Source: Halobacterium sp. DL1 (GTDB lineage Archaea > Halobacteriota > Halobacteria > Halobacteriales > Halobacteriaceae). Taken from it: DNA of 64,000 nucleotides. The notes under the pieces are model-generated. The model searched no databases, was not told the DNA's origin, and saw only the letters and a program-made list of their open reading frames with translations. The DNA lies in NCBI GenBank assembly GCA_000230955.3, contig CP007060.1, forward strand, positions 1,798,001 to 1,862,000, in the 5' to 3' direction. Numbering within the stretch: the first letter of the stretch is position 1; every line of letters begins with the position of its first letter. Position numbers and translations under genes: made by a program. Positions 31,955-50,793 of this stretch are shown piece after piece.

Positions 31955-33358
31955 CTACAGTCGCGAGACGAGGACGTCGGCGTCCTCGATGGCCTCGATG
32001 ACGTACTCGGCGAACTGTGCGGCGGTGACGCCGTCGACGAGGCGGTGGTCAAAGGAGAGGGTCAGCGGCAACACCTTCCTGACCTCCATCTCGGTGTCGT
32101 CGACGGCGACGGGCTTGTTCTGGATGCGACTCATCCCCAGGATGGCCACCTCGGGGTGGCGGATGATTGGCGTGCCGAACGTCCCGTGTTCGCTGTGACT
32201 ACCCGTGTTCGTGACGGTGAACGTCCCCCCACGGAGGTCGCTGGCGTCCACCGAGCGCTCGCGGGTCCGTTCGGCCAGGTCGCCGAGTTCGGTGCTCAGT
32301 TCCGCTACCGACTTCCGGTCGACGTCGTGGACGACGGGCACCATGAGGCCGTCGTCGGTGTGGGTCGCGACGCCGAGGTTGTAGTAGCGCTTCTCGACGA
32401 TCTCCCCGGCCTCGTCGTCGATAGTGGCGTTCAGCGTCGGGAACTCCTGGAGCGCGGGGACGACGGCCTTCATCACGAGCGCGGTGTAGGAGACAGGTGC
32501 GTCCAGTTTCTCGTCGAGGCGCTCCTTCAGCGCGACGAGTTCGGTGGCGTCCGCCTCGAAGCCGGAGGTGACGTGGGGAATCGTCTGCTTGGACTCCACC
32601 ATGTTCTCCGCGATGGTCTCCCGGAGACCGCTCAGCGGCCGCCGGACGACCTCACCGTGCGCGTCGGCGTCCTCGCCCTCGGCCTCGCTCGCTGCTGCTC
32701 CGCTCGACGGGGGCGCGGGCTGGCCGGCCTCACTGCCCGTCTCCGTGGTCGCGGCCTGCTGGCTGTGCGCGTCCACGTCCGCCCGGAGGACGCGGCCGCC
32801 CGGGCCGGACCCATCGACGGCGGCGAGGTCGACGCCTTCTTCGCGGGCGTACCGCCGCGTGCTCGGCGCCGCGAACACGCGCTCGTCGCTGGTCTGCGTG
32901 GCTGTCGACTCGCCCGACGACGACGCACCGGTGTCCGCCGCATCCGCCGTTTCGCTTGCCTCTGCGGCGTCGTCGACCGGCGAGACGGCCGACTCGACGT
33001 TCTCGGCGTCCTCGGTCGATTCTTCGGACTCTCCGCCCGCGTCGGCAGTCGCGTCCGCCTCCGAGTCCGCCCCCTTCCCGACGGCGACCTGGTCGCTCGG
33101 CGGGTTCTCCGTCTCGAAGACGGCGATGACGTCGCCGACGGCGACGACGTCACCGGGTTCGGCGCGGAGTTCCAGCACCGTCCCCGCGACCGGGACGGGT
33201 ATCTCCACGATGGCCTTGTCCGTCTCCACCTCGCAGAGCACGTCCGCCTCGTCGACGGCGTCGCCCTCCGCGACCAGCCACGTCTCTATCTCCGCTTCTG
33301 TCAGCCCCTCGCCGGGGTCGGGCATCCGGAACTCGAACTGTTGGTGTTCAGAACTCAT
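31955..33358 (-). CDS. Dihydrolipoamide acyltransferase E2 of a 2-oxoacid dehydrogenase complex
   Basis: 467 aa. One lipoyl domain with the lipoylated lysine K48 ([14 protein letters not shown]), a very long Ala/Glu/Ser/Asp linker (about 85-158), a peripheral-subunit-binding domain (about 161-197, [15 protein letters not shown]), a second linker, and the catalytic acyltransferase core from about 237 with the DHRLVDG active-site motif. It moves the acyl group from E1 to CoA. It overlaps the E1 beta gene by 11 bases. No E3 (dihydrolipoamide dehydrogenase) follows. The acyl specificity is uncertain. Confidence 0.92.
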
Positions 33359-34352
33359 AGCTCATCACCGCCTCGATGGCGTACTCTGCACGCTGTGCGT
33401 CCGGCAGGTACTCGTCCTCGATCTGGTTGCTCGGGAAGTGGACGTCGTAGCCGGTGGCGCGCTGGACCGGTGCGTGCAGCCGGTCGAACGCGTACTCGTT
33501 GATGACCGCGGTCAGTTCGGCGCCGAGGCCGAGCGTCCGCCGGGCCTCGTGGAACACCACGCAGCGCCCGGTCTTCTTCACGGAGTCGAGCACCGTCTCG
33601 ACGTCGAGCGGACTCAGCGTCCGCAGGTCGACGATTTCCACGTCGGCGTCGACGCGGTCGGCGGCCACCTCGGCCTGGCGCACCATCGCGCCCCACGTGA
33701 TGACCGTGAGGTCCTCGCCCTCGCGGGCGATGCGCGCCTCGTCCAGCGGCAGCGTGTACTCCTCGTCGGGGACGGGTTCGCGGTGGGTCCGGTAGAGCTT
33801 CTTGTGCTCCATGAACACCACGGGGTCGTCGTGGCGAACGCTCGCGGTGAGCAGCCCCTTCGCCTCCCGTGGCCCGCTCGGATAGACCACGCGGACCCCG
33901 GGCGTGTGGACGAGGTAGCTCTCCGTCGACTCGGAGTGGTACTCGCTGGACTTCACGCCGCCGCCACAGACCATCCGCACCGTCAGCGGGACGTCGATGG
34001 CGCCGCCGGAGCGCTCGTGCATCTTCGCCAGCGTGTACATGAACTGCCCGAACGCGGGGTAGAAGAACCCCATGAACTGTATCTCGGGAATCACGCGCTC
34101 GCCGCGCATCGCCATGCCGACGGCGGTCCCGAGAAGACCGTTCTCGGACAGCGGCGTGTCGATGACCCGGGCGTCGCCGAACTCGTCGATGAGGTCCTTG
34201 GTCGTCCGGTAGACGCCGCCGATGGGGCCGATGTCGTAGCCCAGCAGGCGGACGGAGTCGTCGTTGTGCATCTCCGCGGCGAGCGTCTCGTTGATGGTCT
34301 CCACGAGGTTGCGCTCGCTCGTCTCGCCGTCGACGTCCGCTGCGTCGCTCAC
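33348..34352 (-). CDS. 2-oxoacid dehydrogenase E1 beta subunit
   Basis: 334 aa from a GTG overlapping the E1 alpha stop (GTGA). Text [69 protein letters not shown] and [19 protein letters not shown] is that of branched-chain/pyruvate-type E1 beta chains. With E1 alpha it decarboxylates a 2-oxoacid and reductively acylates the E2 lipoyl arm. Confidence 0.92.
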
Positions 34353-35485
34353 TGGAACCCCTCCCCCGTCCAGTCGGTGAACGGGTTCTCGCCCTCGAGT
34401 TCGCGCTCGAGTTCGGCGCGCTGGTGGGACTGCTTCCAGGACTCTCCACGCAGGTGGTTGTCGAACATCCGCTGGGGGTCGGATTCGGGCACCTCGCGGG
34501 CAGCCTCGATGGCCGACGCGACCTCCTCGTCGGCCTCCGACTCGACGTCCTCGACGTCCGCCTCGGTGAGGACGCCCTCGTCGAGGAGGAAGGTCTCGAA
34601 GCGGTCGATGGGGTCGCGCTCTAACCAGTAGTCGCGCTGTTCCTCGTCCCGGTAGACGCTCGGTTCGTCCGCGGTGTTGTGTTCGACGATGCGGTAGGTG
34701 ACGCACTCGATGAACGTCGGGCCGCCGCCGTTGCGGGCGCGCTCGACTGCGTTCCTGGCCGCCTCGTACACCGCGAAGATGTCGTTGCCGTCGACGCGCT
34801 CGTGGGGGACGCCGTACGCGTCGCCCTTCTGGGCGAACGTCTCGGAGGCCGTCTGGCGGTGTGCGGGCACCGAGATGGCCCACTGGTTGTTCTGGCAGAT
34901 GAACACCGCTGGCACCTCGAAGACGCCCGCGAAATTGAGCGCGTCGTGGAAGTCGCCCTGGCTGGTCGACCCGTCGCCGACGAACGTTAGCGATACCGTG
35001 TCGCGGTCGTTGAGTTTGTCGGCGAGCGCGGAGCCGACGGTGTTCGGGAGGTTCGCGCCGAGGGGCACGTAGCCCGGCGAGAAGTTCACCGGCGGTTCCC
35101 TGGCGTCGTCCATCGGGAGGTGCTCGTCGATGGTCTCGGGTTCCGCGCCCATCAGGTTGGCTAGCTGCCGGTCGAGCGGGACGCCCCAGTAGACGAGCCC
35201 GGAGCGCTGTCGGTACAGCGGGAAACACCAGTCGCCGGGGGAGAGCGCTGCCGCCGCGCCGAGCGGCGTCGCCTCCTCGCCCCGACACCGGGAGATGATG
35301 CTCAGTTCACCGCTCCGCTGGAGGCGGAGCGCCCTGTCCTCGAAGGCGCGCGTGAGCTTCATCGCCCAGTAGAGCTCCTTGAGCGCGTCGTCGTCGAGGT
35401 CTGGCGGGTCGCCGACGAGCGTCCCGTCGGGTGCCAGTACCCGGTGGAAATCTTCGGACGGCTGTTCTTCGGACCAGAGTGCCAT
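34349..35485 (-). CDS. 2-oxoacid dehydrogenase E1 alpha subunit
   Basis: 378 aa from the ATG at 35485 (the frame stays open upstream, but the family N-terminus fits this start). The thiamine diphosphate motif runs from G170-D-G172 to N199-N200 (GDGSTSQGDFHDALNFAG ... ICQNNQWAISVP). SRCRGEEATPLGAAAAL and RDEEQRDYWLERDPI are typical of BCKDH-type alpha chains. It heads the E1a-E1b-E2 operon. Upstream, cttaaaaata (35503-35522) gives a plausible TATA box about 28 bases from the ATG. Confidence 0.92.
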   Translation of the reverse strand: MALWSEEQPSEDFHRVLAPDGTLVGDPPDLDDDALKELYWAMKLTRAFEDRALRLQRSGELSIISRCRGEEATPLGAAAALSPGDWCFPLYRQRSGLVYWGVPLDRQLANLMGAEPETIDEHLPMDDAREPPVNFSPGYVPLGANLPNTVGSALADKLNDRDTVSLTFVGDGSTSQGDFHDALNFAGVFEVPAVFICQNNQWAISVPAHRQTASETFAQKGDAYGVPHERVDGNDIFAVYEAARNAVERARNGGGPTFIECVTYRIVEHNTADEPSVYRDEEQRDYWLERDPIDRFETFLLDEGVLTEADVEDVESEADEEVASAIEAAREVPESDPQRMFDNHLRGESWKQSHQRAELERELEGENPFTDWTGEGFQ

Positions 35486-35700
35486 GTCAAACCAACACAG
35501 TTCACCTGTCGCCTTAAAAATATGCAAGCCGGGGAAATTCGAACGGTACACACGCTGTCTGCCCGGCGGTCAGAGACCACTCGACTCCAGCAGGGCGCCA
35601 CGACCTCTGGAAACGTGCGTCGTCCTGCTGGCGACCGAACGTGTCGTCCGCTCGCCACGCCGCCACAGCTATTTAGCCTCGTTCCGAGAACAGGACCCCC

Positions 35701-36672
35701 ATGGAAGACGTCGAAGACCTGCCCGAGCTATCGTTCGCGGGCGTACAGACGTTCCTGAAGGCCGAACAGGCGACGGTCGAGGACATCGACGACGGGGCCG
35801 ACGTCGGCGTGCTCGGCGTGCCGTTCGACGGCGCCGTCTCCCGGCAACCTGGCGCCCGCTTCGGACCGGCAGCGATCCGGGAAGCCAGCGCCTGGTACGC
35901 GTATCTCGGCGGCTACAAGGGCGGTGTGTTGAACGTCGAGACCGGCCAGACCGTCGACTACGGGGATATCGAGATTCGGGACTGCGGGGACGTGCCGACG
36001 GTGCCGACGAGCATCGAACGGACTCGCCCCCAGATCGAGGCGGCCGTGGAACTGGTAGCCGAGCAGACGTTCCCGCTCGTGCTCGGCGGCGACCACTACG
36101 TGACGTACCCATCCTTCCTCGGGTACGCGCGGAGCGTCGACGGCCCCGTCGGCGTCGTCCAGATCGACGCGCACAGCGACACCGTCGCGTCGAGCACGCT
36201 GTACGGCGAGCACTTCCACGGGTCACCGATGGCGCGCATCGACGAGACCGACTACGGCTCCTACGAGACCCACTCGATGGTTGGAATCCGGGGGTACGAG
36301 GGGCCGGAGTTCGCCGACCTCGTGGACGACCGCGACATCGACGTCCGGACCGCCCCGGAGGTCCACGAACGCGGCATCGAGGAGTGCGTCAGGGACGCCG
36401 TCGAGCACGCGACCGACGGCACGGACAGCGTCTACCTCACCGTCGACATCGACGGTGTGGACCCCGCCTACGCCCCCGGCACCGGGACGCCGGAGCCGGG
36501 CGGGCTGACGAGCGCGGACCTCCTCGAGGCGATGGACGTTCTGGGGGAGTACGACGAGATCGGCGCGATGGACCTGATGGAGGTCGCGCCGAAACTCGAC
36601 CCGACGGAGTCCACGCAGCGACTCGCTGCGAACGCTATCGTCAGATTCCTCGAGGCGAGGTTCCTCGGCTGA
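35701..36672 (+). CDS. Ureohydrolase (agmatinase/guanidino-acid hydrolase family)
   Basis: 323 aa. Binuclear manganese-site motifs GGDHY, DAHSDT and DIDGVDPAYAPGTG are all present. The family releases urea from agmatine, arginine, guanidinobutyrate, guanidinopropionate or guanidine, or acts as formimidoylglutamase. The substrate cannot be assigned. In this island a guanidino or amidino compound is possible. A TATA-like ctatttag lies about 30 bases upstream of the ATG. Confidence 0.88.
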   Translation: MEDVEDLPELSFAGVQTFLKAEQATVEDIDDGADVGVLGVPFDGAVSRQPGARFGPAAIREASAWYAYLGGYKGGVLNVETGQTVDYGDIEIRDCGDVPTVPTSIERTRPQIEAAVELVAEQTFPLVLGGDHYVTYPSFLGYARSVDGPVGVVQIDAHSDTVASSTLYGEHFHGSPMARIDETDYGSYETHSMVGIRGYEGPEFADLVDDRDIDVRTAPEVHERGIEECVRDAVEHATDGTDSVYLTVDIDGVDPAYAPGTGTPEPGGLTSADLLEAMDVLGEYDEIGAMDLMEVAPKLDPTESTQRLAANAIVRFLEARFLG

Positions 36673-36846: not shown

Positions 36847-37641
36847 CTACATGGAGATGTCCCCAGTCTGCAGGTTCACCTCGATGATGTTGACGTACTC
36901 CTTGACGACGCGGGGGAGATCCTCCGTGAACCGCTCGTCCTGGAGTCGGCTCGTCGGCGCCGAGAGGCTGAGAGCCCCCAGTACGTCGCCGCTGGGACCG
37001 AGAATCGGGCTGCCGACCGCGCGGATGCCGAGCAGGTCCTCCTCGTCGTTCGCGGCGTACCCGCGTTCACGGACCGTCTCCAGTTCGGCTTTGAACTCCC
37101 CGAGGTCGGTGATGCTGTAGGGGGTGTGCTGGGGGAGGCCGTGCTGGTCGATGACTGCGTCGACGTCGTCCTCGTCGAACTCCGAGAGGATGGACTTCCC
37201 GGCGGCGGAGTAGTGGAGGTGTCGGTCCGTCTCCTCCCGGTTCTTCATGAAGAACTCTCTGCCGACGGCGCGGTCCCCGAAGGACTCGTAGAGGATCGAC
37301 TCGAGGCCGTTCTCCTCGGTGATGAGGTGGACACACTCCCCTGACTCCACGGCGAGTTCGTCCACCTCGCCCTTCGCCGCGCGGTAGAGCGGGACGCTGT
37401 TCCGGACGTACTCCCCGAACGTGAGGAACGCGGGACCGAGCGCGTAGCTGTCCCCCCGGTGTTCCACGAAGCCGTGGTCGCGCAGCGTCGCGAGGTGGGT
37501 GTGGAGCGCGCCCTTCGAGAGGTCGATCTCCCCGGCCAACTCCGCGAGCGTCGCCCCGCCCATACTCCGGAGCGCTTCGAGAATCTGGAGCGCCTTGTCT
37601 ACGGAGGCGATGGTCCGCTTCCCCCCGTCGTCTGTTGCCAT
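36847..37641 (-). CDS. IclR-family transcriptional regulator
   Basis: 264 aa. N-terminal winged helix-turn-helix (about 10-75, ASVDKALQILEALRSMGGAT and LSKGALHTHLATLRDHGF) and a C-terminal effector domain (GREFFMKNREETDRHLHYSAAGKSILS, AVGSPILGPSGDVLGALSLSAPT). It is divergent from the class III aminotransferase and has its own TATA-like acctattt 27 bases upstream. It is the only dedicated regulator in the island, so it probably controls the neighbouring catabolic promoters (inference). Confidence 0.92.
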   Translation of the reverse strand: MATDDGGKRTIASVDKALQILEALRSMGGATLAELAGEIDLSKGALHTHLATLRDHGFVEHRGDSYALGPAFLTFGEYVRNSVPLYRAAKGEVDELAVESGECVHLITEENGLESILYESFGDRAVGREFFMKNREETDRHLHYSAAGKSILSEFDEDDVDAVIDQHGLPQHTPYSITDLGEFKAELETVRERGYAANDEEDLLGIRAVGSPILGPSGDVLGALSLSAPTSRLQDERFTEDLPRVVKEYVNIIEVNLQTGDISM

Positions 37642-37767: not shown

Positions 37768-39096
37768 ATGAACAGGGAGACGGCCGAGCCCACAGCCGAC
37801 CAGCGCTCCGGCGACGCGTCGGAAGCCTGGGTCGCAGCACACCAGGACGTCGCGGCCCCCAGCGAGTACTCACACGAGTTCGTCTGGGACGTCACCGGCG
37901 ACGCCGAGGGGCCGTTCGTGACTGACCTCGACGGCAACGTCCTGATGGACTTCACGTGCCACATCGGCGCCGCGCCGCTCGGGTACAACAACCCCAAGGT
38001 TCTGGACAAACTCAGCGAGTTCGACCTCGTCGACCCGCTGAAGATCGCGGGCCAGGACTTCTACTTCGGCAGCGGCACCGTCGACGACCCGGAGTTCCCC
38101 GGGTCGACCCAGCTGATGCAGGAGCTCACCGAGCGGTCCAGCCAGTACGGCATGGACACGGTGTTCCTCTCGAACTCCGGCGCGGAGGCCATCGAGAACG
38201 CGATGAAGGTGGCCTACGACTACTGCGACGCCCCCAAGTACGGCATCACGTTCACGGGGGCGTTCCACGGTCGGACCTTTGGCGCGCTGTCGCTGACGAG
38301 AGCCAAGAGCGTCTACACGCGAAAGTTCCCGGAGCTGTCGGGCATCCGGGAGGTGCCGTTCTGCGCCTGCGAGGGCGACTGCACGTGCGGGTTCTGGGCG
38401 GGCGGCCAGTCGCGACTGGAGACCCTCCTCGGGCCGGGCGGCCACGTCGACCCGAACGAGGTCGCGTTCCTCGTGATCGAACCGATCCAGGGCGTCGGCG
38501 GCTACCGGTTCCCGAGCGACGAGTTCGCGCGCGAGGTCGGCCGCGTCTCCGAGACGTACGACATCCCGCTCATCGTGGACGAGATTCAGACCGGCGTCGG
38601 TCGCTCCGGGTCGATGTGGGCCTCGGACCACTACCCGTTCGAACCAGACATCATCGCGGCCGGGAAGGCGCTGCGCGTCGGCGCGACCGTCGGCCGCTCG
38701 GAGCTGTTCCCCGACGAGAAGAACCGCCTCGGCTCCACGTGGGGCGGCGGCGACGTCATCGCCTCGATGCAGGGCGCGTTCACGCTCGAAGCCATCGACG
38801 AACACGACCTGCTGGCGAACGCGGAGACCCGCGGCGCAGCGCTCGTCGACTCGCTCGACACCCACCACGACTGCGTCGAGGACAGCCGTAACCTCGGGCT
38901 GCTCGCGGCGGTCGACTACGATACGAAGGAACGGCGCGACGCCGTCGTGGCGGCGGCACTGGACCGCGGTCTGCTCACGCTGGGCTGTGGTACCCGGACG
39001 CTGCGCCTGCTCCCGCCACTGGACGTCACCGAGCGCGAGGTCGACCTCGGGACCTCGCTGCTGAACGACGCCGTCGCGGAGGTCGCCGATGACTGA
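37768..39096 (+). CDS. Class III aminotransferase with CxCx3CxC insert
   Basis: 442 aa, fold-type I PLP enzyme of the GABA/ornithine aminotransferase class. SNSGAEAIENAMKVA (134-148), D271 in LIVDEIQTGVGR and the probable PLP lysine K300 (AAGKALRVGA) are present. C199, C201, C205 and C207 (FCACEGDCTCGF) form a tight Cys cluster not needed for catalysis, perhaps a metal or redox site. The 3' end overlaps the next gene by 8 bases. A GABA-, DABA- or beta-amino-acid aminotransferase are all possible. Confidence 0.85.
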   Translation: MNRETAEPTADQRSGDASEAWVAAHQDVAAPSEYSHEFVWDVTGDAEGPFVTDLDGNVLMDFTCHIGAAPLGYNNPKVLDKLSEFDLVDPLKIAGQDFYFGSGTVDDPEFPGSTQLMQELTERSSQYGMDTVFLSNSGAEAIENAMKVAYDYCDAPKYGITFTGAFHGRTFGALSLTRAKSVYTRKFPELSGIREVPFCACEGDCTCGFWAGGQSRLETLLGPGGHVDPNEVAFLVIEPIQGVGGYRFPSDEFAREVGRVSETYDIPLIVDEIQTGVGRSGSMWASDHYPFEPDIIAAGKALRVGATVGRSELFPDEKNRLGSTWGGGDVIASMQGAFTLEAIDEHDLLANAETRGAALVDSLDTHHDCVEDSRNLGLLAAVDYDTKERRDAVVAAALDRGLLTLGCGTRTLRLLPPLDVTEREVDLGTSLLNDAVAEVADD

Positions 39097-40051
39097 CGCA
39101 CCCGACGTCGTCGTCCTCCGCGAGGGGACGGAGGGCCTGGACATGGCCGACTACGCGGACGCCATCCGCGAGCGCCTGCCGGACGCCGACGTCCGCCACG
39201 CCCGCACCCCTCACGAGGAGCGCGAACTCGTCCAGCACGCGCCGGTCGTCACCGGCGTGGGCATCGACGAGGACCTGCTCGACGCCGCCGAGGAACTGGA
39301 ACTGTTCGCGTGTGCGTTCGCCGGCACCGGCCACCTCCCGACTGACGAACTCGAGGCCCGCGGGGTCACCGTCACGAACGCCGGCGGCATCCACGCGCCC
39401 GGCATCGCCGAGCAGGCTATCGGGAACATCCTGACGTTCTCCCGCCGCCTCCACGAGGGGTGGCGGCGCAAGCAGAACCGCGAGTGGCGGCACTTCCAGT
39501 CGTTCGAACTGACCGACTCGACGGTCACCATCGTCGGCCTGGGGTCCATCGGCCAGGCAGTCGCCCAGCGCCTCGAGGGGTTCGAGGTCGACACCATCGG
39601 AGTCCGGTACACGCCGGAGAAGGGCGGCCCGACGGACGAGGTCATCGGCTTCGGCGAGCGCGAGTTCCACGACGCGCTCGCCCGGACGGACTACCTCGTC
39701 GTCGCGTGCCCGCTCACGGACCTCACCCGGGGACTGGTCGGCGACGCCGAACTCGCCACGCTGCCGCCGCACGCCGTCGTCGTCAACACCGCGCGCGGCC
39801 CGATTCTGGACACGGACGCCGTCGTCGGAGCGCTCCAGACGGAGAGCCTGCGCGGCGTCGCGCTGGACGTCACCGACCCCGAGCCGCTCCCCGAGGACCA
39901 CGTGCTCTGGACGCTGGAGAACGCACTCATCACGCCCCACACGGGTGGCCACACCCCCAAGCACTGGGACCGACTCGCGGACATCCTCGCGCACAACTAC
40001 GACGCCCGCGACTCTGGCGAAGAACTACAGAACGTCGTCATCGCCGGCTGA
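39089..40051 (+). CDS. D-2-hydroxyacid dehydrogenase
   Basis: 320 aa. NAD-binding motif VGLGSIGQAVAQRL (about 149-162), the LTDLTRGLVGDAELATL and VNTARGPILDTDAV segments, and a catalytic His in TPHTGGHTPKHWD. It reduces 2-oxoacids or oxidises D-2-hydroxyacids with NAD(H). It overlaps the class III aminotransferase, suggesting that it acts on the oxoacid produced there. Confidence 0.88.
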   Translation: MTDAPDVVVLREGTEGLDMADYADAIRERLPDADVRHARTPHEERELVQHAPVVTGVGIDEDLLDAAEELELFACAFAGTGHLPTDELEARGVTVTNAGGIHAPGIAEQAIGNILTFSRRLHEGWRRKQNREWRHFQSFELTDSTVTIVGLGSIGQAVAQRLEGFEVDTIGVRYTPEKGGPTDEVIGFGEREFHDALARTDYLVVACPLTDLTRGLVGDAELATLPPHAVVVNTARGPILDTDAVVGALQTESLRGVALDVTDPEPLPEDHVLWTLENALITPHTGGHTPKHWDRLADILAHNYDARDSGEELQNVVIAG

Positions 40052-40070: not shown

Positions 40071-41249
40071 CTACACGACGAAGAGGTCGCGGTCGAAGTC
40101 CGCCAGCGTCTCCGCGCCGTTCTTCGTGACCCGGAACGTCTCGCTGATCTCGACGCCGAAGTCGTCGAACCAGATGCCCGGAATCATGTGGAAGGCCATG
40201 TCCTCCTCGAGCACCGTCTCGTCGCCGGGCCGGAGGCTGGCGGTGTGTTCGCCCCAGTCCGGCGGGTAGCCGATGCCCGTCGAGTAGCCGAGGCGGGAGT
40301 CCTTCTCGATGCCGTGTTTCGCGATACTCTCGCTCCAGACAGCCTCGACCTCCTCGGCGGTGACGCCGGGTTCGACGGCGTCGAGAGCGTCCTGGAGTCC
40401 GCCCCTGACGACCTCGGCGGTTTCGGCCATCTCGGGGTCTGGTTCGCCGACGCTGAGCGTGCGCGCCATCGGGCAGTGGTAGCGGTGCTTGCAGCCCGCG
40501 AGTTCGACGATGACGGGGTCACCGTTCTCGAACTCGCGGTCGGACCACGAGAGGTGCGGGGTGCCGGTGTAGTCCCCCGAGGGCATCAGCGGGACGATGG
40601 CCGGGTAGTCGCCGCCGAACTCCTCGGTGCCGCCGATGAGGCCCTCGTAGATGGCGGCCGCGGCGTCGGACTCGCGGACGCCCTCGCCGATGGTGTCGAC
40701 GGCAGCCTGCATCCCCGTCTCGGCCAGCTGTGCGGCCTGCTCCATGTACGCTATCTCCGCGTCGGTCTTCTTCAGCCGGACCCAGTTCACCAGCAGCGTG
40801 GCGTCCTCCGTGTCGGCCTCGGGCAGCTGGTCGGTGAGGCGCGCGTGGGACTTCGCGGTGTAGTAGTAGGCGTCCATCTCCACGCCGAGCGTTCGGTCGT
40901 CGTAGCCGAACTCCTCGACCACCGTCGCGACGTAGTCCATGGGGTGTTTGTCGTGTGGGGACTGGACGTAGTCGTCCGTGTAGGAGAGGACGTGGTCGTC
41001 GTCCATCCACGTCGTCACCTCCGCGGACTTGGCGTCCATCTCGCGGCCGACCCACACGGGGTCGTGGTCGAGCGTGAGCAGCACGCCCTGGTGGACGTAG
41101 AACGACCAGGACTCGTAGCCCGTGAGGTAGTTCATGTTCGCGGGGTCGGTGACGAGCAGGGCGTCGAGGCCGGCCTCGCGCATCCGTTCGCGCGTCCGGT
41201 CGACCCGCCGTTCGTACTCACTACTCCGGAAGGGGACGAGTTCACTCAT
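40071..41249 (-). CDS. doeA: DoeA/EutD-like ectoine hydrolase (M24 pita-bread fold)
   Basis: 392 aa, creatinase/prolidase fold. From memory the text is very close to ectoine hydrolases: GYESWSFYVHQGVL (44-57), VGVEMDAYYYTAKSH, LVNWVRLKK, EFGGDYPAIVPLMPSG (210-225), VELAGCKHRYHCPMARTL (248-265), DSRLGYSTGIGYPPDWGE and IPGIWFDDFGVEISE. The usual five metal ligands of M24 peptidases are missing, as in DoeA. E249 lies where I would place the nucleophilic Glu reported for EutD. The predicted reaction is ectoine to N-acetyl-diaminobutyrate. Divergent from a diaminobutyrate-type aminotransferase. It has a TATA box (ggtttatg) 30 bases upstream. Confidence 0.8.
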   Translation of the reverse strand: MSELVPFRSSEYERRVDRTRERMREAGLDALLVTDPANMNYLTGYESWSFYVHQGVLLTLDHDPVWVGREMDAKSAEVTTWMDDDHVLSYTDDYVQSPHDKHPMDYVATVVEEFGYDDRTLGVEMDAYYYTAKSHARLTDQLPEADTEDATLLVNWVRLKKTDAEIAYMEQAAQLAETGMQAAVDTIGEGVRESDAAAAIYEGLIGGTEEFGGDYPAIVPLMPSGDYTGTPHLSWSDREFENGDPVIVELAGCKHRYHCPMARTLSVGEPDPEMAETAEVVRGGLQDALDAVEPGVTAEEVEAVWSESIAKHGIEKDSRLGYSTGIGYPPDWGEHTASLRPGDETVLEEDMAFHMIPGIWFDDFGVEISETFRVTKNGAETLADFDRDLFVV

Positions 41250-41303
41250 TCACTCGGACCCTCGTGGAGTGTTCGCATAAACCTTGCGCGAGACGGTCAG
41301 TTT

Positions 41304-41318
41304 CTGACTACGGAAACA
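41304..41318 (+). promoter_or_regulatory. Shared promoter element, site 2 (divergent doeA/aminotransferase)
   Basis: CTGACTACGGAAACA begins exactly 64 bases upstream of the aminotransferase ATG at 41368. A TATA-like ctatttgt (41337-41344) follows. Flanking TTT makes it an imperfect palindrome (TTTCTG...CGGAAA). The same element appears upstream of two other units in the island. Confidence 0.5.
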
Positions 41319-41367
41319 CTGGTTCCTGTGAACAATCTATTTGTGGGCGTGCCACCTGGGTGGTCGT

Positions 41368-42732
41368 ATGGCCGGACCACCGATTCACGAACTCCACTAC
41401 GCAGAGGCACCCTCGGTCGACTCAGTGCCCGGGCCGAACTCCGACCGCCTCCTGAAGAAACAGGCCGAAGTCGACAGCAGCGCCGTCGCCTACCCAAACA
41501 ACATCCCGCTCGCCTTCGAGGAGGGGAAGGGCGCGACGCTCAAGGACGTCGACGGAAACGTCTTCCTGGACTTCTTCGCGGGCATCGGCGTCTACAACGT
41601 CGGGCACGCCAACCCCTACGTCAACGAGGGCGTCCACGAGCAGATCGACAAGCTCACGCACACCGTCGACTTCCCGACCCAGCCCCGACTCGACCTCATC
41701 GAGAAGCTCGACGAGATTGCGCCCGGCAGCCTCTCGGGCAACAGCCGCGTCGTCTTCGGCGGCCCGACTGGGAGCGACGCCATCGAGGCCTGCATCAAGC
41801 TCGCGAAGTACAACACGGGCGGCAACGGCCTCCTCGCGTTCCGGAACTCCTACCACGGCGCCACCTCGGGCGCGATGAGCATCACGTCGAACAAGAAGTT
41901 CAAGAAACCGTACGCGCCGCTGCTGTCGGACGTCGTCCACGCGCCGTTCCCCTACCCGTTCCAGGAGGGTCGTGACCCCGAGGAGTCCGTCGAGCACGCA
42001 CTCGCGGAGGTGCGTTCCATCGTCGAAGAGCCGTACGGCGGCATGGCTGACCCCGCAGGCATCTTCGCCGAACCCATCCAGGGCGAGGGCGGCGTCATCG
42101 TCCCGCCGGAGGGGTTCTTGCAGGGGCTCCGCGACATCGCCGACGAGAACGACCTCCCGCTCGTCTTCGACGAGATCCAGGTCGGTCTGGGCCGCACCGG
42201 CGAGTGGTGGGCCTCGGACCACTACGACGTGACGCCGGACGCCATGGCGATGGCGAAGGCCCTCGGTGGGAACGGCCAGCCGCTGTCCGGGACGCTCTAC
42301 AGCGAGGAACTCGACACGTGGGGGCCCGGCGACCACGCCGGCACCTACCGGGGGCACGTCCCCGCGATGGTCGGCGGTTTGCGCGCCATCGAGTACATCG
42401 AGTCCCACGACCTGCTCGACCACGCCACCCAGGTAGGCGAGCAGATCCGGAGCCGGCTCCGGGACGCCGCGCAGAACGACCCGGGGCTCGGCCAGGTGCG
42501 CGGGAAGGGGCTGTTTGTCGGCGCGGAGTTCGTCGACGACGAGGGGAACCCGGACGACGACCGTGTGGACGCCATCCAGCAGTACTGCTACGAGCACGGC
42601 GTCCTCGTCTGGACGGCCGGCCAGTACAGCAACGTCCTCCGCTTGCTCCCGCCGCTGGTGCTCACCGAGGAGCAGGCCGAGGTCGGCACGGAGATCATCG
42701 CGGACGCCATCGAAGCGACGGCCGCCAACTAG
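41368..42732 (+). CDS. Diaminobutyrate-type class III aminotransferase (DoeD/EctB-like candidate)
   Basis: 454 aa. It has FGGPTGSDAIEACIKLAKY (130-148), RNSYHGATSGAMSIT, EPIQGEGGVIVPP, D268 in LVFDEIQVGLGRTGEWWA and the PLP lysine K297 (AMAKALGG). The gene text is that of diaminobutyrate--2-oxoglutarate aminotransferases. In ectoine breakdown DoeD converts diaminobutyrate to aspartate semialdehyde. It is divergent from the ectoine hydrolase-like gene and two bases upstream of the M20 gene. Synthesis of diaminobutyrate for export is less likely since no ectA/ectC is present. Confidence 0.82.
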   Translation: MAGPPIHELHYAEAPSVDSVPGPNSDRLLKKQAEVDSSAVAYPNNIPLAFEEGKGATLKDVDGNVFLDFFAGIGVYNVGHANPYVNEGVHEQIDKLTHTVDFPTQPRLDLIEKLDEIAPGSLSGNSRVVFGGPTGSDAIEACIKLAKYNTGGNGLLAFRNSYHGATSGAMSITSNKKFKKPYAPLLSDVVHAPFPYPFQEGRDPEESVEHALAEVRSIVEEPYGGMADPAGIFAEPIQGEGGVIVPPEGFLQGLRDIADENDLPLVFDEIQVGLGRTGEWWASDHYDVTPDAMAMAKALGGNGQPLSGTLYSEELDTWGPGDHAGTYRGHVPAMVGGLRAIEYIESHDLLDHATQVGEQIRSRLRDAAQNDPGLGQVRGKGLFVGAEFVDDEGNPDDDRVDAIQQYCYEHGVLVWTAGQYSNVLRLLPPLVLTEEQAEVGTEIIADAIEATAAN

Positions 42733-42733
42733 T

Positions 42734-44008
42734 ATGCCCGACACCGAGCGATTGCGAACGCTGCGGCGGGAACTCCACCGGTTCCCCGAACCGGCGTGGC
42801 GGGAGTTCCGCACGACCTGTCGGCTGGTCGCGGAACTGGAGTCGGTCGGCGTCGACGAACTGCACGTGGGGCGCGCGGCGATGGACCCCGACGAGCGGAT
42901 GGCCGTCCCCGAGGACGACGAACTCGGCGAGTGGTACGAGCGCGCCGCCGCGGCGGGCGTCGACGACTCCGTGCTCTCCCAATTAGACGGTGGCTACACC
43001 GGCGTCGTCGCGCGGATAGCCTCCGGGGACGGCCCCCACGTCGGCCTGCGGGTCGACATCGACGGGCTGCTCGTCGAGGAGTCCGAGGACGACGCCCACG
43101 CGCCCGAGCGGGAGGGGTTCCGCTCGGAGTACGTCGAGTCGATGCACGCCTGCGGCCACGACGGCCACATGACCATCGGGGTCGGCGTCATCGAGGCCAT
43201 CAAGGACAGCGACTTCGAGGGCGCCCTGACCGTCTTCTTCCAGCCGGCGGAGGAGGCCTCCGGGGGCGGGAAGCCGATGGCCGAGAGCGAGCACGTCGAC
43301 GGCATCGACTACCTTTTCGCGGTCCACCTCGGCCTCGGCCACCCGACCGGCGAGGTGGTCGGCGGCATCGAGAAACCGCTCGCGATGTGCCACGTCGAGG
43401 CGACGTTCCACGGCGAATCAGCACACGCCGGCGTCGCCCCCAACGAGGGGCGGAACGCGATACAGGCGCTGACGACGGCCGTCCAGAACACGTACGGCAT
43501 CCCGCGCCACGCCGACGGCATGACGCGCGTGAACGTCGGGAAGATCGGCGGCGGCACCGCGAGCAACATCATCGCGGAGCGGGCCCACGTGCTCGCGGAG
43601 GCCCGCGGCGAGACGACCGAACTGATGGCGTACGCCCGCGACGAGATGCGCCGCGTCTTCGAGTCCGCAGCGGAGATGCACGACTGCACGGTCGACTTCG
43701 ACGTCGTCAGCGAGTCGCCGCGCGCGGACAGCGACCCCCAACTCGCGGCACTCGTCGCCGACGTGGCCGACCACGACGACCGGGTCGACAGCGTGCTCCA
43801 GCACGCCGACTTCGGCGCGAGCGAGGACGCGACCTTCCTGATGGAGGCCGTCCAGGAGCAGGGCGGTGCCGCCACGTACGCCATCGTCGGCACGGACCAC
43901 CCGACCGCCCACCACACGCCCACCTTCGACGTCGACGAGCGCTCGCTACCGGTGGCGGTCGACGTGCTCGCGGCGTCCATCGAGCGGGTCGCCGCCGACG
44001 GCGTGTAG
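42734..44008 (+). CDS. M20-family amidohydrolase (AbgA-like), candidate N-acetyl-diaminobutyrate deacetylase
   Basis: 424 aa. Binuclear-metal motifs of M20D enzymes are clear: GLRVDIDGL, MHACGHDGHMTIG, FQPAEEAS, ESAHAG and a final TAHH. The long N-terminal region (RELHRFPEPAWREFRTTC ... WYERAAAAGV) matches AbgA, which splits aminobenzoyl-glutamate. Here the gene begins one base after the diaminobutyrate aminotransferase stop, so deacetylation of N-acetyl-diaminobutyrate is the simplest role. That step is normally done by the unrelated AstE/AspA-family DoeB. Confidence 0.85.
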   Translation: MPDTERLRTLRRELHRFPEPAWREFRTTCRLVAELESVGVDELHVGRAAMDPDERMAVPEDDELGEWYERAAAAGVDDSVLSQLDGGYTGVVARIASGDGPHVGLRVDIDGLLVEESEDDAHAPEREGFRSEYVESMHACGHDGHMTIGVGVIEAIKDSDFEGALTVFFQPAEEASGGGKPMAESEHVDGIDYLFAVHLGLGHPTGEVVGGIEKPLAMCHVEATFHGESAHAGVAPNEGRNAIQALTTAVQNTYGIPRHADGMTRVNVGKIGGGTASNIIAERAHVLAEARGETTELMAYARDEMRRVFESAAEMHDCTVDFDVVSESPRADSDPQLAALVADVADHDDRVDSVLQHADFGASEDATFLMEAVQEQGGAATYAIVGTDHPTAHHTPTFDVDERSLPVAVDVLAASIERVAADGV

Positions 44009-44067: not shown

Positions 44068-45555
44068 ATGCGAAACGCGGACCACGTCCGTACCGTTGGC
44101 GAACTTCTCGGGTGCTCCCTCGACAGCAGCGACGTGGACGACTGGCGCGACGTCCCGGACGAGTACGACGCACTCGGAATGGCGGACGGCGAGTCCGCGC
44201 CGACGCCCACCGACGTGACGGTCGACCCGGACCTCTCCGCGGACGAGTTCAACGCCTTCGTCTCCACGTTCGCGCTCGTCGGCGACGGCGGGCCGCTCGG
44301 GGACCTGGACCTCGCGGTGAAGGACAACGTCGCCGTCGCGGGCGTCCCGCTCACGGCGGGGGTCCGCGCGTTCGAGGACGCGACGCCCGAACGGCACGCG
44401 CCCGTCGTCTCGCGACTGCTGGACGCCGGTGCGACGCTCGTGGGGAAGACGAACATGGACGAACTCGCCTACGGGCCGACCGGTGAGACGGGCGGGTTCG
44501 GGCCGACGCGGAACCCTCGCCACTCCGCGCACGTCGCCGGCGGGTCCTCGGCGGGCAGTGGTGCCGCCGTCGCCGCCGGCCTGGTGGACGCCGCGCTCGG
44601 CACCGACACCGGCGGTAGCGTCCGGATTCCCGCGTCGTTCTGTGGCGTCGTCGGCTACAAGCCGTCGGCCGGGGCCGTGCCGCGCGCCGGCGTCGTTCCG
44701 CTCGCGCCCTCCCTCGACCAGGTCGGCGTGCTCGCGGACTCGGTGCGGGACGCCGCCCGCGTCGCCGACGTGCTAGCCGGCCCACACCGCAGTGACCGGG
44801 CGACGCTGGGCAGGTCCGTCGGTCGCCTCGCTGCAGGCGCCGGCGACTCGCCCGCAGTCGCGGACTGCTCGTTCGGGCTCCCCGACGAGTTCCTTGGGCC
44901 CCACGTCGACCCGGCGGTGCGTGGCCACGTCGAGCGCGCAGTCAACACGCTCGAAGCGGCCGGCGCGTCCGTCGAACACTGCTCCATGCCGCGGTTCGAC
45001 GAGACGGCCCCCGCGTGGGACGCCCTCGCCAACGTCGAGTTCGCCGCCGCACTGTTCGCCGGGCTCACGCCCCTCGACGGCGTCGGCGTCGACGCCGCGT
45101 GGCACTCGGACGTCGCGAGCGTTCTCGGGTCCGACCCCCGCCACCGGTTCTGCGACCGGGTGGTGGAGAACGCTCTCGACGGCGCGGCGCTGCTCTCGGA
45201 GAGCGGTGGCGAAGTCTACGACCGGGCGCTCGCGGAGTGCGAGCGCTTCGCGGTCGGCTACCGGGACGCCCTCGAGGGGCACGACGCGCTGCTCGCGCCC
45301 ACGATGCCAATCACGGCACCGGCCGTCGGGGAGTGGCCACTGTCGGGGTCCGAGCGGGCGGCAGACGGCGTCGAGGACCGGCCGCCGCTGTCGGTGAACG
45401 TCCGCCAGGCGAACCTCCTGGGGGCGCCCGCGCTCTCGCTCCCGTGCGGCCGCGAGAGCGGCCTCCCGGTGGGCCTCCAGTTGCTCGGCGCGCCCGGCGA
45501 GGACGCCGCGCTAGTCGCGGCTGCGAGCGCCGTCGAGGCCGCACTGTCGGCGTGA
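44068..45555 (+). CDS. Amidase (amidase-signature family)
   Basis: 495 aa from the ATG at 44068, about 27 bases after a tttatccc box. The Ser-cisSer-Lys triad fits the family spacing exactly: K85 (LAVKDN), S160 (AGGSSAGSG) and S184 (GTDTGGSVRIP). It hydrolyses a carboxamide or acts on a cyclic amide. It is not GatA, because gatB/gatC are absent and the sequence departs from GatA at both ends. It follows the M20 gene on the same strand, suggesting a shared pathway for an amide substrate. Confidence 0.88.
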   Translation: MRNADHVRTVGELLGCSLDSSDVDDWRDVPDEYDALGMADGESAPTPTDVTVDPDLSADEFNAFVSTFALVGDGGPLGDLDLAVKDNVAVAGVPLTAGVRAFEDATPERHAPVVSRLLDAGATLVGKTNMDELAYGPTGETGGFGPTRNPRHSAHVAGGSSAGSGAAVAAGLVDAALGTDTGGSVRIPASFCGVVGYKPSAGAVPRAGVVPLAPSLDQVGVLADSVRDAARVADVLAGPHRSDRATLGRSVGRLAAGAGDSPAVADCSFGLPDEFLGPHVDPAVRGHVERAVNTLEAAGASVEHCSMPRFDETAPAWDALANVEFAAALFAGLTPLDGVGVDAAWHSDVASVLGSDPRHRFCDRVVENALDGAALLSESGGEVYDRALAECERFAVGYRDALEGHDALLAPTMPITAPAVGEWPLSGSERAADGVEDRPPLSVNVRQANLLGAPALSLPCGRESGLPVGLQLLGAPGEDAALVAAASAVEAALSA

Positions 45556-45558
45556 CGG

Positions 45559-45720
45559 TTACGAGGAGAGGGAGACGATTGTCGTCCCGACAACGACGAC
45601 GGCGGCCGCCGCGACGAGGCGGGGGGTGACACGCTCCAGGCGACGCGGGAGCAGGGCGGCCGAGAACACGAGCACGAGCAGTGGTGCGGTCTGGAAGATG
45701 GGGACGACTCCGTCTACCGG
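45559..45720 (-). pseudogene. Remnant of an EamA/DMT-family transporter (C-terminal helices only)
   Basis: On the minus strand, ending at a stop at 45559, about 53 codons read VVPIFQTAPLLVLVFSAALL then PRRLERVTPRLVAAAAVVVV and GTTIVSLSS. This is the last two helices of an EamA (DMT) transporter half. The homology stops near 45720, and further upstream the frame is antisense to the creatininase gene, so the first eight helices are gone. A decayed or recombined exporter/importer gene is the best reading. Confidence 0.6.
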
Positions 45721-45729
45721 CTCGCGGAC

Positions 45730-46500
45730 ATGACCTGGCAAGAGGTCGAGGCGGCCATCGAGGAGACCCAGACGATGCTGTTGCCGGTCGGGAGCACCGA
45801 ACAGCACGGCCACCACATGCCCCTCGGCGTAGACGTCTACATGCCGGAGGCGATCGCCGAGCGCGTCGCGGAGCGGACTGGCTGTCTGCTCGCACCGCCC
45901 GTCTGGTACGGCGTCAGCCCCCACCACACGTTCAAGCCGGGGACGTTCACCGTCGAGAGCGAGACGTTCCAGCACTACGTCCGGGACGTCTGCACCTCCG
46001 CCGCGGAGTGGGGCGTCGAGAACGTCCTCCTCGTGAACGGCCACTACCTCGTGCAGGACCCGGAACTCGACGTGGTGGTCCGCGAACTGACGACCGAACA
46101 CGGGATGCGCGCGTTCCACGTCCCGCTCATTTCGGTGTTCCAGGACGCCGCCACGGCCGTTCGTACGAGCGACGTCTCCTTCCACGCCTCCGAGTTCGAG
46201 ACGAGCCTGATGCTGGCACTGTTCCCGGACCTCGTGCAGATGGACCGCGCGGAGGCCGTCGACGTCCCCGACGACGCGCTCCCGCTCACGGAGTACGACG
46301 CCTACGGCGACAACCGCGTGGGCTGGGCGCTGTCCGCCGAGCGCATGAACGCCCTGACCCACACGGGGAACCTCGGCGACCCGACGGTCGCGACCCGCGA
46401 GAAGGGCGCCGAGATGGTCGAGGACGCCGTCACGAACGTCACGAACCTCGTCGACGCACTCGCCGGTCTCGACGCTCCAGAGTCGGGAGACGAGGAGTGA
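45730..46500 (+). CDS. Creatininase-family amidohydrolase
   Basis: 256 aa. Metal-binding N-terminal motif LLPVGSTEQHGHHMPLGVD (17-35), then VNGHY (usually NGHGGN) and SFHASEFETSLML. The family includes creatininase, mycofactocin MftE and FAPy deformylase ArfB. ArfB would follow GTP cyclohydrolase III, but that gene is 19 kb away. Here, inside a catabolic island, a cyclic-amide hydrolase is more natural. Substrate unknown. Confidence 0.85.
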   Translation: MTWQEVEAAIEETQTMLLPVGSTEQHGHHMPLGVDVYMPEAIAERVAERTGCLLAPPVWYGVSPHHTFKPGTFTVESETFQHYVRDVCTSAAEWGVENVLLVNGHYLVQDPELDVVVRELTTEHGMRAFHVPLISVFQDAATAVRTSDVSFHASEFETSLMLALFPDLVQMDRAEAVDVPDDALPLTEYDAYGDNRVGWALSAERMNALTHTGNLGDPTVATREKGAEMVEDAVTNVTNLVDALAGLDAPESGDEE

Positions 46501-49431: not shown

Positions 49432-50793
49432 ATGGACGTAATCAACCCTGCCACCGGCGAACAGGTCGACTCATTCGCGGAACACTCGGCGGGTGACGTC
49501 GAGGACGCCCTCGAGCGCGCTGAAGACGCCTACCAGGACTGGCGCGAACAGCCGATGCGCGAGCGCGAGGAGCTGCTCGCGAACGCCGCGGACGTCCTCC
49601 GCGAGAACAAGCGGAAGTACGCGGAGACGATGACCCAGGAGATGGGGAAACCGATCAGCCAGGCCATCGGCGAGGTCGAGAAGTGCGCGTGGCTCTGCGA
49701 CCACTACGCCGAGAACGCGAGCGCCTACCTCGGCGACGAGCACCACCCGAGCCCGGCGGGCACGGACGTCAAGACGGTCCACCAGCCCCTGGGCGCGGTG
49801 CTGGCCGTGATGCCGTGGAACTTCCCGTTCTGGCAGGTGTTCCGGTTCGCCGCGCCGTACCTGACGGCCGGTAACGTCGGCCTCCTGAAACACGCCTCGA
49901 ACGTTCCCGGGTGCGCCGTCGCCATCGAGGAAGTGTTCCGAGAGGCGGGCTACCCCGAGGACGTCTTCCAGACGCTGCTCATCCCCTCGGACCTCGTCGA
50001 CGACGTCATCGCCGACGAGCGCGTGAAGGCAGCGACCCTGACCGGGAGCGGCCCAGCGGGTCGCGCAGTCGCGTCCTCCGCGGGCGAGAACCTCAAGAAG
50101 ACAGTCCTCGAACTCGGCGGGAGCGACCCGTTCGTCGTCCTCGACGACGCGGACGTCGAGGCGGCCGCGGAGACCGGTGCGTGGGCGCGCAACCAGAACG
50201 GCGGGCAGTCCTGCATCGCTGGCAAGCGCTTCGTCGTCCACACCGACGTCTACGACGAGTTCGTCGACCGGTTCGTCGACGAGTTCGAGTCGCTGACCGT
50301 CGGCGACCCGATGGACGAGGAGACGGACGTCGGCCCGCAGTCGCGGCCGGACCTCCTCGAGGAGCTCGACGAACAGGTCCAGGAGAGCATCGAAGCGGGC
50401 GCCACCGTCCTCACGGGCGGCGAGCCGATGGACCGCGAGGGCTCGTACTATCCGCCGACCATCCTGGCCGACGTCCCCCACGGCTGTCCGGTCGACGCCG
50501 AGGAGACGTTCGGCCCCGTCGCCGCGGTGTACGAGGTCGAGGACGAGGAGGCCGCCATCGAACTCGCGAACGACACGGAGTTCGGCCTCGGTGGGAGCGT
50601 CTGGACCGAGGACCGCGAGCGCGGCGAGCGCGTCGCCAAGCGCATCGAGGCTGGCTGCGTCTACGTCAACCAGCTAGTCAAGTCCGACCCCCGCGTGCCG
50701 TTCGGCGGCATCGGTGAGTCCGGCTACGGCCGCGAGCTCTCCGGGGTGGGCATCAGGGAGTTCGTCAACAAGAAAACAGTCTGGATCGAGTGA
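49432..50793 (+). CDS. Succinate/aspartate-semialdehyde-type aldehyde dehydrogenase (DoeC candidate)
   Basis: 453 aa. N130 in MPWNFPFW, E227 in VLELGGSDPF and the catalytic C261 in NGGQSCIAGKRF are in place. C-terminal VPFGGIGESGYGRELSGVG is normal. The text is that of the NAD(P)-dependent SSADH group. In the ectoine pathway DoeC oxidises aspartate semialdehyde to aspartate. The shared promoter element supports co-regulation with the diaminobutyrate aminotransferase. Succinate semialdehyde from a GABA-type transaminase is an alternative substrate. Confidence 0.85.
   Translation: MDVINPATGEQVDSFAEHSAGDVEDALERAEDAYQDWREQPMREREELLANAADVLRENKRKYAETMTQEMGKPISQAIGEVEKCAWLCDHYAENASAYLGDEHHPSPAGTDVKTVHQPLGAVLAVMPWNFPFWQVFRFAAPYLTAGNVGLLKHASNVPGCAVAIEEVFREAGYPEDVFQTLLIPSDLVDDVIADERVKAATLTGSGPAGRAVASSAGENLKKTVLELGGSDPFVVLDDADVEAAAETGAWARNQNGGQSCIAGKRFVVHTDVYDEFVDRFVDEFESLTVGDPMDEETDVGPQSRPDLLEELDEQVQESIEAGATVLTGGEPMDREGSYYPPTILADVPHGCPVDAEETFGPVAAVYEVEDEEAAIELANDTEFGLGGSVWTEDRERGERVAKRIEAGCVYVNQLVKSDPRVPFGGIGESGYGRELSGVGIREFVNKKTVWIE

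Follow-up and report, generated by a model that had tools for sequence, protein, structure and literature searches.

Which enzyme removes the acetyl group from the product of ectoine opening in the haloarchaea is the question raised by a gene cluster in a stretch of 64,000 nucleotides, referred to here as the window (C1:1798001-1862000 of a 3.16-Mb haloarchaeal genome). Ectoine is a common salt-stress protectant, and the initial annotation of the window took as its premise that in known degraders the deacetylation belongs to DoeB/EutE of the AstE/AspA family. It pointed to an AbgA-like M20D amidohydrolase starting one base after a diaminobutyrate (DABA) aminotransferase, and it suggested a non-orthologous replacement of DoeB. 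The premise is incomplete, as NCBIfam also holds an M20-type family, DoeB2 (NF038260), and Bacillota clusters without eutE are reported in excerpts of PMC13188858. Taken together, gene content and order, conservation, phylogeny, intact catalytic residues and the absence of a DoeB orthologue make it probable, in our judgement, that DoeB/EutE has been replaced, here and in related haloarchaea, by the M20D protein, and that this protein belongs to the AbgA branch, probably as a copy of a resident AbgA-like amidohydrolase that was recruited separately from the M20s of the Bacillota.

The protein itself is readily classified. The stop codon of the upstream aminotransferase gene, AT2 (TAG, 42730-42732), is followed by a single T and then by the ATG of a 424-residue reading frame, so the arrangement described in the initial annotation is confirmed. 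The product scores 253.1 bits against TIGR01891 (M20D; cut-off 153.75) with its metal and catalytic residues kept, and a domain profile search finds the M20 peptidase and dimerisation domains (PF01546, 88.0 bits; PF07687, 48.1). The closest solved protein is 3io1, an AbgA-type "aminobenzoyl-glutamate utilization protein" (264 bits), which is also the top Foldseek and best PDB match of a confident AF2 model (pLDDT 89.5). Every M20 metal and catalytic residue is present in the window protein; across all 128 M20s aligned from the DoeA regions, C140, H142, E173, E174, H198, H231, N278 and R291 never vary and H394 is kept in 126, residues that we take to bind metal or substrate. Other residues (E115, S277, A281, R330, D332, A358, F360 and A362) are specific to the clade of DoeA-linked M20s, D332 and S277 being found not only in the main linked proteins but also in a clade of second-copy M20s described below. 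We propose that this protein is an N-alpha-acetyl-DABA deacetylase standing in for DoeB.

Table 1. Features of the proposed ectoine cluster, in window coordinates
Feature	Coordinates	Strand	Remarks
IclR-family regulator	36847..37641	-	profile matches; divergent from AT1
Second class III aminotransferase (AT1)	37768..39096	+	profile matches; 8-base overlap with HADH1
D-2-hydroxyacid dehydrogenase (HADH1)	39089..40051	+	profile matches; usually adjoins M20 in relatives
DoeA/EutD-like ectoine hydrolase, M24 fold	40071..41249	-	divergent from AT2-M20
Intergenic stretch between the divergent DoeA and AT2-M20 transcripts	41250..41367		coordinates
Class III aminotransferase (AT2), proposed DABA transaminase	41341..42732	+	ends one base before M20
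M20D amidohydrolase, AbgA type; proposed deacetylase	42734..44008	+	ATG start
Succinate-semialdehyde-type aldehyde dehydrogenase	49432..50793	+	profile matches; candidate last (DoeC) step

The case for ectoine as the starting compound depends on the M24-fold neighbour that is transcribed away from AT2 and M20 (Table 1). Its score against the DoeA family TIGR02993 is 448.5 bits, short of the cut-off of 613, which is exceeded in none of the 391 genomes of the class. Among solved M24 proteins it is closest to the proven DoeA of H. elongata, 6twk (375.7 bits, the next family reaching 111.7), and it is 48% identical over its full length (388 residues) to the annotated DoeA of Caballeronia. Because of this structural match and this identity, opening of ectoine by the DoeA-like protein is the likely first step. 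The DoeA of Halobacterium bonnevillei is 93% identical to it, and the control genome named Haloferax volcanii also yields a DoeA-like match.

The other members of the cluster are assigned less firmly. That AT2 is a class III aminotransferase is borne out, and its naming as a DABA enzyme in the initial annotation was a further step: its top family matches are of the acetylornithine type (410 bits) and the DABA type (385 bits), neither of which reaches its own cut-off, so that AT2 may be the DABA transaminase. The mechanical call starts AT2 at TTG 41341, an ATG at 41368 being the likelier start, and the stretch upstream of that ATG could serve as a common control region for DoeA and AT2-M20. The IclR-family protein is a possible local regulator, and the aldehyde dehydrogenase may belong to the pathway. 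Identity to the Caballeronia counterparts is low, 27% for AT2 and 31% for the aldehyde dehydrogenase, and more than the deacetylase may therefore differ from the proteobacterial route. An IlvA/EutB-like gene and a BCCT carrier, both frequent in related clusters (see below), are absent from the window; no BCCT carrier was found anywhere in the genome, and its nearest IlvA/EutB relative lies 700 kb off at 48% identity. These absences, which bear on ectoine uptake, count against the proposed replacement. Directly 3' of M20, and outside the conserved cluster, 44068-46500 encodes an amidase (PF01425) and a creatininase-family protein (PF02633). On the other side and close by, 33348-36672 carries 2-oxoacid dehydrogenase E1-type genes (E1 being assigned from sequence) and encodes a ureohydrolase of the arginase family.

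No DoeB-like sequence was detected in the window by tblastn with the Caballeronia DoeB (best E 0.80), and the earlier remark that no AstE/AspA protein is visible there holds. DoeB and the M20 protein do not align significantly (blastp E 2.1), and the latter has no match to the DoeB/EutE family TIGR02994. The initial annotation also proposed looking for a DoeB homologue elsewhere in the genome. PF04952 was not found there, and the search turned up three AstE/AspA-like proteins outside the window, which align to DoeB at 26-27% identity and score 88-95.5 bits against the TIGR02994 cut-off of 402.7, a cut-off exceeded in none of the 391 haloarchaeal genomes. Proteins of this kind, typically two to five per genome, occur in 390 of the 391 genomes with or without DoeA, which itself was found in 144. 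On these scores and this distribution, we reject the existence of a DoeB orthologue elsewhere in the genome.

The association of M20 with DoeA is not peculiar to the window genome and runs through the haloarchaea. Neighbourhoods were counted in 123 of the 143 other DoeA-bearing genomes, the window's own genome being left out of the count; these genomes are related, and the counts are therefore not independent. In 113 of the 123 an AbgA-like M20 gene is found no more than 12 kb from DoeA (median gap 4.6 kb), conservation that rejects a chance neighbourhood; DoeA is accompanied by a D-2-hydroxyacid dehydrogenase in 114 and by AT1 in 75. As an internal control, an AstE/AspA-like stretch appears in only three of the 123 regions (502, 96 and 46 bits). 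In one genome (L124) DoeA and M20 stand alone together, encoded on the same strand. In a conserved-neighbour count of 26 of 47 haloarchaeal loci, the partners include an IlvA/EutB-like dehydratase (20/26), a BCCT carrier (16/26), glutamate dehydrogenase and an FAD/Fe-S D-2-hydroxyacid oxidase-like protein (10/26 each) and a Rid protein (8/26). In Haladaptatus (L273, 14202-16747) M20 ends within the first bases of a threonine ammonia-lyase gene of the IlvA/EutB-like type, and this 4-base overlap suggests that the two are translated jointly. The linked M20 of Natrialba chahannaoensis is split into two ORFs (L040, about 18.4-19.9 kb; L217, about 1.0-2.3 kb), perhaps through a frameshift or a sequencing error.

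The ten genomes without M20 inside the 12-kb limit were counted against replacement and are of several kinds. The M20 gene lies just beyond the limit in G208, and in G325 DoeA and M20 are at opposite ends of a contig and may be neighbours if that contig is circular. High-scoring M20s are present elsewhere in G016, G060, G097 and G310, and G308 and G347 also have a high-scoring M20 in the genome. The best M20 matches of G249 and G255 reach only 7e-153 and 7e-152, within the range of genomes lacking DoeA. In these last two (L127, L128) DoeA adjoins genes for a BCCT carrier, a cystathionine gamma-synthase-like protein and a threonine-dehydrogenase-like protein, with neither M20 nor the usual partners, and this arrangement possibly reflects a different use of DoeA. 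The phylogenetic profile, counted by hand and with a cut-off (E<=1e-165) chosen after the data were seen, places an M20 of the linked type in 136 of 144 DoeA genomes versus 1 of 247 without DoeA. An uncorrected Fisher test, which disregards kinship among the genomes, serves as no more than an illustration. The single case (G303:C67:13386-14639; 2.4e-172) comes from a draft that is 90% complete, so its DoeA may be missing from the assembly.

To ask where the haloarchaeal M20s came from, a tree was built from 115 of 213 M20 rows, comprising a random subsample and all special rows, with four duplicates dropped; rows with stops or shorter than 330 residues were left out, and with them the split M20 of N. 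chahannaoensis. The tree was inferred quickly and drew long-branch warnings, which leave its exact root open. In it, the M20s of the haloarchaeal DoeA regions fall together (support 97), next to a set of 13 paralogues (support 100) spread across the genus in genomes with or without DoeA. The paralogue in the window's own genome, at C1:955821, is 60% identical to the window M20, and E. coli AbgA joins the linked M20s and the paralogues with support 85. Bacterial M20s adjacent to DoeA, nearly all from Bacillota, make up a separate group (support 100), and their identity to the window protein is about 24-30%, a contrast with the 60% figure that does not depend on the root. The haloarchaeal linked M20s are thus nearer in the tree to AbgA and the unlinked archaeal paralogues than to the Bacillota group, and a single M20 lineage for all DoeA clusters is rejected, since the two sets of DoeA-linked proteins fall in separate groups. 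This phylogeny points to a haloarchaeal M20 that was recruited separately, out of the AbgA branch, with a resident archaeal paralogue as its probable source. Eleven regions (L142, L143, L145, L146, L150, L196, L210, L233, L236, L241 and L246) have a second M20; these second copies make up a clade of their own (support 100) inside the linked group, and several adjoin AT2.

In the pathway that we infer, DoeA would convert ectoine to N-alpha-acetyl-2,4-diaminobutyrate, from which the zinc-dependent M20D enzyme would remove the acetyl group, the co-encoded aminotransferase would turn diaminobutyrate into aspartate semialdehyde, and an aldehyde dehydrogenase would oxidise the latter to aspartate; the substrate and reaction of the M20 protein, the co-regulation of the genes and the later steps are its conjectural parts. 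The substrate could also be a hydroxyectoine intermediate, given the IlvA/EutB-like gene next to M20 in many relatives, and a branch in which the enzyme acts chiefly on hydroxy-N-alpha-acetyl-DABA and feeds the dehydratase so often encoded next to it would account for the 20 of 26 loci and for the Haladaptatus overlap. We think such a restriction improbable, as the window lacks the dehydratase gene, whose closest relative in the genome is distant in both position and sequence, and still keeps M20 beside AT2 and DoeA. EutE is thought, according to extracts from PMC8739950, to act on both the ectoine- and the hydroxyectoine-derived forms, so that this reading and the replacement of DoeB overlap. 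A deacetylase acting in trans is about equally improbable: one of the three AstE/AspA-like proteins would do the work and M20 would handle another intermediate of the cluster. All three do fall in the DoeB family with the identities given above, and G310 encodes an AstE/AspA protein about 3 kb from DoeA, but their scores are far below the cut-off, their relatives occur in nearly every genome of the class although DoeA does not, and they lie near DoeA in very few regions.

A slightly less probable reading still is that the cluster does not serve ectoine at all, the DoeA-like M24 protein opening or cleaving a related compound whose product M20 would hydrolyse. It draws on the failure of DoeA to reach its equivalog cut-off here and throughout the 391 genomes, on a cluster without a proven transporter and on the word provisional, which PMC13188858 applies to the archaeal clusters. 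Set against these points are the full-length identity to annotated DoeA, the solved ectoine hydrolase as by far the best structural relative, and the BCCT carriers, RidA and EutB-like genes of related clusters, which fit the use of an osmolyte. That M20 is an ordinary p-aminobenzoyl-glutamate hydrolase (AbgA) present by accident would explain its grouping with the E. coli enzyme and its nearest structure, and is nonetheless very improbable in view of its tight linkage to DoeA and of a genome in which neither an AbgB subunit nor an AbgT over the cut-off was found. Most likely, then, an AbgA-type M20D enzyme has replaced DoeB across the haloarchaea, a conserved substitution that we predict to be functional. 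The non-orthologous replacement suggested in the initial annotation has accordingly passed its genomic tests (no DoeB orthologue, linkage of M20 to DoeA, no AbgB or AbgT), the role as deacetylase being putative. More speculatively, and with the balance somewhat against it, haloarchaeal ectoine catabolism might be a mosaic in which a DoeA close to the Bacillota form is combined with an M20D deacetylase recruited independently from the archaea's own AbgA-like enzymes and with transaminases, a D-2-hydroxyacid dehydrogenase and an IlvA/EutB-like dehydratase, making the steps after DoeA partly unlike the proteobacterial route.

If the replacement is real, one reaction of ectoine breakdown is filled by two unrelated enzyme families, and M20D enzymes have been recruited for the DoeB step at least twice, from different branches. 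The failure of automatic annotation to recognise ectoine use in haloarchaea would also be explained, because the plasmid records examined name these proteins "M24 family metallopeptidase" and "amidohydrolase", and there would be a pathway, open to testing, for archaea that share their brines with bacteria producing ectoine.

Among known systems, DoeB/EutE (TIGR02994; PDB 6twl, 6twm) shares with the window M20 the proposed reaction and the place beside DoeA, and belongs to an unrelated family. A methanotroph doeB mutant accumulates N-alpha-acetyl-DABA, and its DoeB is 22% identical to that of H. elongata (excerpts of PMC7192451). AbgA (p-aminobenzoyl-glutamate hydrolase subunit; E. coli b1338; PDB 3io1) is of the same M20D branch and 36% (35.7%) identical to the window protein; in the window genome only M20 paralogues match its partner AbgB (34 and 27 bits). 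The precedent for an M20 enzyme in this role is DoeB2, an M20D family to which NCBI curators give the function of DoeB and for which our literature search found no paper under "doeB2". The window protein is encoded with an ectoine hydrolase, a criterion of context that is ours and not part of NCBI's text, and we reject it as a DoeB2 member at 108.8 bits against a cut-off of 550; ten Bacillota M20s near DoeA (212-336 bits) are likewise below it. Among 71 bacterial DoeA loci, 58 have an M20 and none has a DoeB match at E<=1e-4. Two Shinella plasmids (L270, 7992-10353; L279, 5992-8353) carry an annotated EutA-like gene, an M24 gene and an M20 gene in a row, the last two overlapping by 14 bases, followed by arginase and ornithine cyclodeaminase genes.

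The open-access literature yielded no paper that assigns the haloarchaeal deacetylase. In PMC3102087 ectoine appears solely in the title of a reference, and on archaeal catabolism PMC13188858 (2026) alone is relevant. Its available passages describe more than 100 EutD hits from archaea; their clusters, called provisional, also contain aminopeptidase, aminotransferase and BCCT genes and apparently are the DoeA-M20 clusters described here, with the deacetylase step left without assignment in those passages. They also describe putative EutD clusters of Bacillota, again provisional, that lack eutE and contain an amidohydrolase named abgB whose function is left open. These Bacillota proteins are like the window M20 in being M20D enzymes that adjoin DoeA without EutE, and differ from it in sequence and in clade. 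With an M20-type DoeB2 in NCBIfam and these bacterial and archaeal clusters on record, the substitution of an M20 for DoeB is not new as an idea and its kind is known; the haloarchaeal variant appears to be new, and so does its origin in a recruitment of its own out of the AbgA branch.
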